Source: Burkholderiaceae bacterium | GTDB taxonomy: Bacteria; Pseudomonadota; Gammaproteobacteria; Burkholderiales; Burkholderiaceae_E | Assembly (NCBI GenBank): GCA_021463505.1 | Contig: JAJTYR010000036.1 | Location: forward strand, 1-36,070 | DNA: 36,070 nucleotides | Direction: 5' to 3' | Shown: positions 20,793-22,982 of the stretch, piece after piece | Numbering within the stretch: the stretch's first letter is position 1 | Layout of the letters: the number at the start of each line of letters is the position of its first letter | Made by a program: the position numbers and the translations under genes | Notes under the pieces: model-generated | Database searches by the model: none | Seen by the model: only the letters and a program-made list of their open reading frames with translations | Told to the model about the DNA's origin: nothing

Positions 20793-21002
20793 CGGTTTTG
20801 TCCAGGCAACGCCGTCAGCGCCGACGGTGCGGGTTCACCCGGTGATGATCGTGGCGTCGCCTGCAGCCCGCCGACGAGCGCCGGGCGTGCGTTCAGGAGC
20901 CCTTCCAGCGCGGCAGGAACCGGCGGCTGCGCGAGCGAAGGACACGGCTTCGGGTCAGGAAGACAGTCTGCCTCGTCCAGGAAACCCGGGGCCACCCGCA
21001 TC

Positions 21003-21041
21003 TCATTCGACGGTAACCGATTTCGCCAGGTTTCTCGGCTT
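21003..21041 (-). pseudogene. Displaced copy of the glmS catalytic tail (attTn7-like)
   Basis: On the minus strand this reads [12 protein letters not shown]-stop, identical in protein to the last twelve residues and stop of the true GlmS 126 bases upstream. At DNA level most codons differ at the third position: CCG AGA AAC CTG GCG here against CCT CGC AAC CTT GCA in glmS. Homology stops exactly at the Lys; the residues before it (RSY) do not match GlmS. This tail is the region bound by TnsD of Tn7, and the copy reads more like the E. coli attTn7 codons, as recalled, than the real gene does. It looks like the scar of an element, or of another glmS allele, inserted at the glmS end. Confidence 0.7.
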
Positions 21042-21053
21042 GTAGCTCCGGCC

Positions 21054-21091
21054 GGCGCTTCGCGCCTTGACCTGCGCCTGCGGCGCAGGTC
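21054..21091. repeat. Doublet of adjacent perfect hairpins
   Basis: GGCGC-TTC-GCGCC (21054-21066) is followed after two bases by a ten-base perfect stem: GACCTGCGCC at 21069-21078 and GGCGCAGGTC at 21082-21091, loop TGC. The close pairing of two palindromes resembles REP/BIME-type units. A transcription terminator for glmS is the alternative, though no U-run follows. Confidence 0.5.
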
Positions 21092-21103
21092 AGCCTTCGC
21101 TGT

Positions 21104-21167
21104 AAACCTCGCGCAAAGAGCGTGCCGGTCATTCGACCGTCACGCTCTTTGCAAGGTTGCGAGGTTT
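21104..21167. repeat. Long inverted repeat across the glmS stop codon
   Basis: The left arm 21104-21124 is the reverse complement of 21141-21152 plus 21159-21167; the right arm carries six extra bases (AAGGTT, 21153-21158). Between the arms CGGTC (21126-21130) pairs with GACCG (21135-21139) around ATTC. In the glmS transcript this gives a 26-base-pair stem that includes the last thirteen codons and the stop. The left arm is thus a nearly exact inverted copy of the gene's own tail lacking the Asn-Leu codons. Confidence 0.8.
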
Positions 21168-22982
21168 ATCCACGTCCGTTCCACGCGCCAGCGCCGCGTG
21201 ATACGCCAGCAACTGCAGCGGAATCACGTGCAGGATCGGCGACAGCAAGCCGGCGTGGTCGCCGAGGTTGATGATGTTGATCCGGTCTTCGGGCTCGATG
21301 TGCGTGTCCTGGTCGGCGAACACGAAGAGCTCGCCGCCGCGTGCCTTGACTTCCTGCAGGTTCGACTTCAGCTTTCCGATCAGCGCGTCGTTGGGGGCCA
21401 CCACGACCACCGGCATCTCGCTGTCGACCAGCGCCAGCGGGCCGTGCTTGAGTTCGCCGGCGGCGTAGGCCTCGGCGTGGATGTAGGTGATCTCCTTGAG
21501 CTTGAGCGCACCCTCGAGCGCGATCGGAAAGTGCACGCCGCGGCCAAGGAACAGCGCGTGCTGCTTGGGCGCGAAGCGGTTGGCCCAGTGGCGCACGACC
21601 GGCTCGCACTCGAGCACACGCGCGATCGCCGCCGGCAGGTGGCGCAGTTGCGCGAGCAGTTCCTGTTCGCGTGCCGGCGAGAGCCGCTTGCGCTGTCTGG
21701 CGAGCACCAGCGCCAGCACGAACAGCGAGGCGAGTTGCGTGGTGAACGCCTTGGTCGACGCAACGCCGATCTCGGGGCCGGCGCGGGTGAGAAAGCGCAG
21801 CCTGCTCTGGCGGATCAGCGCGGATTCGGGCACGTTGCAGATCGACAGCGTGTCGCGCAGGCCCAGCGACCTGGCGTGCTGCAGCGCTGCGATGGTGTCG
21901 GCGGTCTCGCCCGACTGCGAAATCGTGATCACCAGCGTGTCGGCCAGGGCGACCGAATCGCGGTAGCGGTATTCGCTGGCGATCTCCACCGACACCGGCA
22001 GTCCGGCGATCGACTCGATCCAGTATCTGGCGACGTAGCCGGCGTGATAGCTGGTGCCGCAGGCCAGGATCAGGATCTGCCTGGTGCGGGCGAACACTTC
22101 GGCCGCTTCGGCGCCGAACAGTCCGGCCGACAGCCACGCCGCGTTCATCACCATTTCGAGCGTGTTGGCGACCGCGCCCGGCTGCTCGAAGATCTCCTTC
22201 TGCATGAAGTGCCGGTACTTGCCCAGCTCGATCGCGTCCGTCGACAGCTGGCTCTCGACGATCGGACGTTCGACCGGGTGGCCGTCGCGATCGACGATCG
22301 AATAGCCGTCGAGCCGGATCTGCACCACGTCGCCTTCCTCGAGGTAGGCAACGTACTTCGTCACCTGCAGCAGCGCCGAGGTGTCGGACGCGAGGAAATT
22401 CTCCCCCTTGCCCGAGCCCGCGTTGCCGATGCCCAGCAGCAGCGGCGAGCCCTTGCGCGAGCCGACCACGGTGTTGGGCTCGCTCTTGTTGATCGCTGCC
22501 ACCGCATAGGCGCCCTCGAGCTCGCGCGCCGCCTTCTGCATCGCTTCGAACAGGTTCGATCCGGCCGCGACGTGGCTGTGCAGCAGGTGCGCGATCACCT
22601 CGGTGTCGGTGTCGCTGGCGAACTGGTAGCCGGCTCCGGCCAGGCGCCGGCGCAGCGCCTCGTGGTTCTCGATGATGCCGTTGTGCACCACCGAGACTTC
22701 GATGCCCCCGCCGGCCGAGAAATGCGGGTGCGCGTTCTTCTCGGTGACGCCGCCGTGCGTGGCCCAGCGGGTGTGTGCGATGCCGGTGGGTGCGTCGGCG
22801 CGTGCTTCGCGCGCGCGAGCTTCCAGGTCGGCGACGCGACCCACCGCGCGCACCCGCTCCATCGTGCCGTTCATGATGGCGATGCCGGCCGAGTCGTAGC
22901 CGCGATATTCGAGCTTGCGCAGCCCTTCGATCAGGATCGGGACGACGTTACGTTGCGCGACGGCTCCGACGATTCCACACAT
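21129..22982 (-). CDS. glmS: Glutamine--fructose-6-phosphate aminotransferase GlmS
   Basis: GlmS makes glucosamine-6-phosphate from fructose-6-phosphate and glutamine, the first step to UDP-GlcNAc. The 617 residues start [12 protein letters not shown], with Cys2 the glutaminase nucleophile after Met removal. The glutaminase domain runs to ~240 ([25 protein letters not shown]), followed by two SIS domains ([42 protein letters not shown]). It ends with the catalytic C-tail [13 protein letters not shown], whose Lys is the Schiff-base residue of the family. The ATG at 22982 is fixed by the essential Cys. It follows glmU by 25 bases, so one operon makes two steps of the same path. The tail codons (AAA CCT CGC AAC CTT GCA) are less GC-rich than the body, and the end sits in an inverted repeat. 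Confidence 0.98.

Follow-up and report, generated by a model that had tools for sequence, protein, structure and literature searches.

Why is the end of glmS encoded twice at this locus? In the window, the stretch of 36,070 nucleotides analysed here from a Burkholderiaceae bacterium, the last 39 nt of glmS (21129-21167) and a downstream copy (21003-21041) encode the same 12 residues and a stop codon. Both tails lie on the minus strand, with a start-to-start distance of 126 bp. They are identical at 27 of 39 nt and differ in 9 of 12 sense codons, and the peptide is the same in both. The earlier note had described a same-strand repeat with this spacing and with most codons changed, and the description is borne out. 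Chance is excluded as the source of the second tail, as 15 triplet shuffles reach at best 5-7 of 13 letters (stop included), and the best match is 6 of 13 in the reversed window and again in the window with both tails masked. An assembly error, which the earlier note had considered, is unlikely, because other assemblies carry whole or partial second tails behind glmS (loci L008, L018, L026, L052, L232, and L336), that of L336 coming from a single-contig genome.

The region is composed of a left hairpin, a structured core that we call M, and the second tail (Table 1). Positions 21103-21112 pair with 21159-21168 and positions 21113-21130 pair with 21135-21152, leaving 6 nt of the working tail without a partner. 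Left hairpin and M together account for the unit length of 126 bp. The working tail is a hairpin arm, and its unusual codons are therefore the codons of that arm. The strand from 20990 to 21180 has a predicted folding energy of -96.3 kcal/mol, compared with a shuffled mean of -69.9 (z -5.86; 0 of 200 shuffles). The model match to M covers 21040-21104, and the ends in Table 1 were set by eye. Downstream of the unit, the stretch 20930-20972 aligns with L009 (28 identical, 3 mismatched, 3 gaps) and with L016 (32/42) in alignments that have no control, and is possibly an insertion-sequence end. Near a stretch similar to it, L014 contains sequence that by eye resembles a piece of an integrase-type transposase.

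Table 1 Features of the glmS 3′ region in the window. T1 and T2, the two tail versions; T1′ and T2′, their inverted copies.
Feature	Position	Strand	Remarks
glmS	21129..22982	minus	617 aa; TIGR01135 match to profile position 607/607
Working glmS tail, version T2	21129..21168	minus	left arm and loop of the unit's hairpin
Unit start	A|TAA, between 21169 and 21168	minus	inside glmS
T2′, inverted copy of the working tail	21103..21130	minus	pairs with 21135-21168 to form the left hairpin
Core M, 60 nt	21043..21102	minus	outer 3-bp stem, GNA/GNA internal loop, GGCU/GGCC stem, two variable hairpins
Second glmS tail, version T1	21003..21042	minus	starts at A|CAA immediately after M
T1′, degenerate inverted copy of the second tail	20977..20996	minus	first part aligned to the sister's first unit, rest by eye
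About 40 bp resembling sequence behind glmS in L009 and L016	20930..20972	minus	possible insertion-sequence end

The second tail is probably the right flank of a very small insertion unit that encodes no protein and sits within the 3′ end of glmS, a unit whose left hairpin re-supplies the end of the gene and leaves glmS intact. The second tail itself is best read as the resident or a duplicated glmS end. The earlier note had proposed that an element brought a replacement tail and left a scar. There is indeed an element, to which the working tail belongs, but the unit is still there, and is not the scar of an excised Tn7-like element. Tn7 inserts downstream of the glmS stop codon, and the glmS 3′ end is its classical target. 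The unit shares this gene end with Tn7, but starts at 21168, inside the gene. TnsD, the only tns gene searched, exceeds the cut-off in 0 of 61 genomes (6 matches are sub-threshold) and has no match in the window's own genome, and the common core M also occurs at proB, pilT, ftsW, and tRNA genes. We regard a scar of a Tn7-like transposon or of an integrase island at attTn7 as extremely unlikely.

Among the 61 genomes of the relatives search, nine have M immediately after glmS (G000, which is the window's own genome, G003, G008, G009, G010, G012, G014, G030, and G059), and G021 and G029 have a glmS-like tail beside M, with glmS itself cut off or masked. The unit layout, partly degenerate, is found behind glmS at L008, L015, L017, L018, and L026. 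Relatives with the same spacer and no second tail, which the earlier note had named as a case that would refute its observation, are found in part: no second tail is recognised behind the unit in G010, G012, and G059, and a degenerate one is present in G003, G008, and G021. At G010:C135:10666-12505, glmS is in two pieces meeting at residue 565/566, as if frameshifted.

The sister species G014 has a glmS body identical to that of the window at 1683 of 1812 nt. The sister holds T1-M-T2-M-T1 (the last degenerate), whereas the window holds T2-M-T1; as read from the sequences, the two species use two synonymous tails in opposite order. The T2 unit of the window aligns with the displaced second (T2) unit of the sister with 118 positions identical, 11 mismatched, and 1 gap. 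The second tail of the window matches the sister's working tail at 56 of 62 positions and its third tail at 42 of 51, in local alignments of unequal length. The window's tail order could equally stem from the loss of one unit in a longer array. In G351, from another family, the second glmS tail is identical (39/39 nt) and is followed by a third tail that differs at 8 of 33 nt, and the two intact tails of a Rhodoferax MAG have 7 mismatches over 39 nt, with 5 falling among the first 18. Identical copies fit duplication, and different copies fit later divergence, import, or array exchange.

Two alternatives bear on these comparisons. The locus could be a minisatellite, with units born once at glmS and growing or shrinking in number by slippage or recombination without any insertion, so that the state in the window would derive from a sister-like T1-M-T2-M-T1 array in which deletion of the first unit joined glmS to the following tail. 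In favour of this, some loci (L063, L048, and L134) carry arrays whose units are identical or nearly so, and the window's first unit closely matches the sister's second unit. However, the second tail of the window is closer to the sister's first tail than to its third, with the alignment lengths differing as above, and a common M at unrelated genes with other arms, as well as empty sites, would go unexplained. We consider a minisatellite unlikely. Alternatively, homologous exchange with another species could have swapped in a unit-bearing glmS 3′ end and displaced the resident tail downstream. A foreign glmS allele, as proposed in the earlier note, is a possible source of the different codons, and the exchange would fit the identical protein with 9 of 12 codons changed, the opposite tail order in two species with similar glmS genes, and the different intact tails of the Rhodoferax MAG. 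It accounts for the codons, but not for the inverted arm, M, or the recurring layout at other genes, and the second tail of G351 is identical. An imported tail is given a still smaller chance than a minisatellite, and the insertion unit is kept as the probable reading.

M is a repeat family. A covariance model built from eleven copies has five matches at E<=0.001 in the window's own genome, the window copy included. The four further copies lie at the end of proB (three, split over contigs C42 and C46) and at nuoD (one); three weaker matches (E 0.012 to 0.32) were left out of the count. The proB unit array probably breaks the genome assembly at the end of C42 and the start of C46 of G000. M is present in 27 of 61 genomes of the relatives search, in 14 of 18 genomes of the window's genus (own genome counted), and in 79 of 250 genomes of the order, representing 44 of 120 genera. 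The single-contig genome G351 has 52 matches, and G055 has 34. In a class-wide search of 274 genomes, the own genome is the sole match; with strict filters and 19 candidates scored per listed genome (8 in one), this absence is soft. A pattern scan finds at least 118 stretches in named genomes and 2 on viral contigs. Among the matches listed in named genomes, the titles are ones that we take to be betaproteobacterial or belong to MAGs named to a high rank only; two MAGs are titled Gammaproteobacteria. The two viral contigs are L252 and L253; the L252 copy adjoins the 3′ end of an RpoD gene, and the contig may therefore be bacterial. An autonomous version, with a gene inside M, is not favoured by a scan for separated M halves (315 loci, 1.43 Mb). 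The scan yields 219 normal pairs and 3 distant pairs, and all 3 of the latter trace to a single array in the sister. A further 11 left halves are followed by another left half, and 73 have no right half in reach.

The layout seen at glmS recurs in many copies at proB, pilT, ftsW/murG, nuoD, tRNA, and other genes, as target end, inverted arm, M, and target end. Read in the direction of M, many sites run from the gene through A|HAA to arm and loop, inverted arm, M, a second A|HAA, and a further copy of the gene end, where H is A, C, or T and the A|HAA sites are near gene ends. At these sites the left hairpin consists of the target's own end and a further copy adjoins M, so that one complete copy of the gene is left. 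Flank statistics are based on 139 listed pattern-found copies (two on viral contigs), of which 119 have enough flank and 118 were scored; the copies are partly non-independent, owing to arrays and related genomes. In 62 of 118 copies, the 160 bp upstream contain a reverse complement of the 14 nt to the left of M (at least 11 of 14 matching), compared with 28 of 2341 shuffled-partner controls; with each locus counted once, the figure is 57 of 98. A right-hand target copy exceeds the controls' 99th percentile of local score in 48 of 112 copies with longer flanks. Both arm and right-hand copy are present in 29 of 112 and neither in 31; 56 of 118 copies have no inverted arm at the threshold, and 64 of 112 have no right-hand copy above control. 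Some M copies of G351 have a generic mini-hairpin only, with no target sequence, and several copies of that genome are in longer repeats.

Of the 62 arm-bearing copies, 34 are spanned by an open reading frame of at least 80 codons whose stop codon lies within the hairpin; in 19 a long crossing frame stops elsewhere, and 9 have no such frame. Genes ended by a unit are complete by NCBIfam (ProB 362/363, FtsW 356/357, DapD 271/271, and GlmS 607/607 profile positions). The NCBIfam scan covered 18 proteins, 16 of which adjoin M in named or viral loci, the other two being the PilT tail of L286 and the GlmS of the window. Names adjoining M are ProB, DapD, an AlaC/LL-DAP-type aminotransferase, DksA, FolE2, FtsW, ornithine carbamoyltransferase, GlmS, MetK, GAPDH, RpoD, TrpE, SmpB, a flagellar motor protein, and a flavin reductase-like protein; the L206 protein matches no NCBIfam family, and NuoD, LivH, and MurG were named by eye. 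At ftsW/murG (L085 and L087-L091) and at proB, the right-hand copy departs from the left arm over its first ~10 nt, a stretch that also varies from genome to genome, and the remainder is kept. Such divergence is not expected from fresh duplication.

At tRNA sites, the 5′ half of the gene breaks off in the anticodon loop; a hairpin and M come next, then the opposite strand of the anticodon stem, filler, and a complete tRNA gene. ARAGORN identifies this complete gene, for Ser, Leu, or Phe, in 7 of the 8 stretches picked by eye as tRNA-like (L142, L157, L166, L171, L182, L190, L130, and L108, the first seven with the gene behind). By eye, six of the eight loci have a repeat that starts ~2 nt or less from the mature 5′ end; in L182 it starts 8 nt before this end, and in L142 further upstream. 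At nuoD, the unit is oriented against the gene and lies at the gene start, which speaks against an mRNA route. These sites also bear on whether M is a cis-acting RNA element, acting as a terminator or stability hairpin, favoured by selection at the 3′ ends of genes and spread through ordinary duplication. The transcript strand has a very stable predicted fold, and wherever the stop codon falls in the hairpin (34 copies), unit and gene run in the same direction. However, the unit is also found reversed at the start of nuoD and in 5′ halves of tRNA genes, and no Rfam family is matched: the two matches of M (E 2 and 4.9) score 16.5 bits against a gathering score of 55 and 12.6 bits against 40. 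A cis-acting RNA element is therefore very unlikely, and a known structured RNA is rejected for want of an Rfam match above the gathering score.

Occupied and empty versions of the same sites are found within the genus. The ftsW/murG site is occupied in 6 of 16 genus genomes with a MurG match, and the pilT site in 5 of 17 with a readable tail, plus one degenerate copy. In the window's own genome, the pilT site is empty and the palindrome GGCTGACATGTCAGCC already surrounds the stop codon; in G014, the same palindrome is lengthened by the inverted arm. Empty ftsW sites have shorter palindromes only, for example TCATGC..GCATGA in G004. The palindromes at pilT and ftsW suggest fold-back synthesis starting from a natural palindrome. 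G014 has two pilT-type junctions on different contigs (L075 and L084), one of which may be a contaminant, and the apparent L075/L079 swap of tail versions is therefore only suggestive. Movement of the unit as a whole we infer from the scattered sites and the empty relatives; copying of the target at insertion would be part of the same event.

The conserved structure of M is a three-way junction. In 117 distinct copies, 93.9% of the cells in 20 pairs are standard pairs. Covariation supports the fold, with 257 cells changed on both sides, compared with 68.3 (sd 6.2) for shuffled partners and 20-32 with the pairing slid; the alignment was fitted to the model, and slid partners are the better control. 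The helices are a 3-bp outer stem, GGCU/GGCC, and two sequence-free hairpins; a fifth helix, of a single pair, is formed in only 55% of cells. The 5′ internal loop reads GNA in 100 of the 104 readable copies among the 117 (GCA 41, GTA 23, GAA 21, and GGA 15), although the A of the loop was required by the search for pattern-found copies. GNA triloops make up 89 of 209 predicted hairpin loops of M. GNA triloops are very stable in single-stranded DNA, and a DNA fold of M is therefore as thinkable as an RNA fold.

A mechanism can tentatively be proposed, which would be a new mode of mobility without a protein of its own: M, as folded single-stranded DNA, would be attached at A|HAA, and the cell's own polymerase would copy the gene end and snap back. 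Each insertion would thereby build a hairpin specific to its target and give the gene a new end, often with synonymous changes. The 3′ end of M would be joined to the cut A|HAA, and the freed 3′ end would copy the gene end. The copied strand would fold back at a palindrome near the stop codon, on the displaced strand, and the arm would be copied back to the folded M and sealed to it, yielding end, inverted arm, M, and end. Later recombination within arrays would switch which synonymous tail the gene uses. As part of this proposal, which we regard as possible but doubtful, arrays would serve as a store of tails and may hide glmS from other elements. Under the fold-back model, the arm should end at A|HAA, a palindrome should lie close to the stop codon, and the outer stem of M should continue into the paired arms. 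The arm end and the continuation of the outer stem are present at the sites read; pilT has a clear palindrome and ftsW a weak one. Outside these predictions are the changes in the right-hand arms of ftsW and proB and the generic hairpins at tRNA sites; the arm changes may reflect selection against unstable direct repeats.

A search for a mover covered TnsD, Y1 transposase, and reverse transcriptase and singled out none of them; neither of the last two clearly tracks the M family. Y1 transposase (PF01797, E<=0.001) occurs in 9 of the 27 M-bearing genomes and in 12 of the 34 that lack M, and has no match at this threshold in the window's own genome. For reverse transcriptase (PF00078), the counts are 10 of the 27 and 6 of the 34; the own genome has two matches, and G055, with its 34 copies of M, has none.

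The units resemble several known systems. Integrases landing in gene or tRNA ends rebuild them, and here too the inserted DNA restores a working gene end. However, the M unit has neither a gene nor a fixed attachment core, is ~70-150 bp long as read here, has many unrelated targets, and carries an inverted target arm. A self-splicing intron is rejected, as a complete gene copy stands beside M (the glmS frame is intact, and the tRNA gene after M is complete in 7 of 8 stretches). Integron attC sites are folded, occur in tandem arrays, and have a conserved GTT at the R′ box. M units are likewise folded and arrayed, but have two hairpins, no constant GTT core (GTC in the window), and no cassette genes. 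The pair of columns 14-81 of M is AU in 97 copies, GC in 9, GU in 3, CG in 1, and other in 4. In this comparison of sequence features, the lack of the conserved GTT sets M apart from attC.

MITEs are small, protein-free, and multi-copy, and so are M units. Unlike MITEs, M units at gene-end sites have arms that follow the target and no constant terminal inverted repeats, and their repeated flanks vary (~20-90 bp by eye) in place of a short fixed target duplication. The gene-end units are thus not MITEs, yet copies in G055 (L109-L117) and in G351 (L329, L330, L332, L333, L337, L340, L341, and L344) are embedded in longer repeats with terminal repeats of their own, CAGGCCGTTGAAAAAC or GGAAACGCTGAA. 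These long repeats look as if a MITE captured M and multiplied with it.

The nearest known kind is the REP/BIME elements. REP/BIME elements, which have RAYT transposases, are short, protein-free, palindromic repeats, tandem or scattered, outside genes or at gene ends. Four cases are reported in which a BIME has taken in the 3′ end of a rayt gene, so that there is a precedent for the capture of gene ends (PMC2817692). The M foot GNAGGC is near the enterobacterial REP GTAGGCC given there. M differs in being a three-way junction of ~60 nt, in having a tag that is not fixed, and in being often preceded by a target-matching arm. Membership in the REP/RAYT class is rejected, since M has a GNA loop in a three-way junction rather than a fixed GTAG-type tag at a single palindrome, and the own genome has no RAYT match (PF01797, E<=0.001). 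No earlier account of the M family turned up in literature searches of a library lacking most subscription journals, which is weak evidence of novelty; the terms sought in PMC3733652 do not occur there.

If units with target-derived arms insert in this way, they would form a class of gene-less mobile DNA able to recode the ends of essential genes and yet leave those genes unbroken. Such units would help to explain synonymous recoding at conserved gene ends, would be an added confounder for work that relies on the glmS end, and would offer a clean system for studies of fold-back synthesis. With recurrent occupied and empty sites at hand, the mechanism is directly testable.
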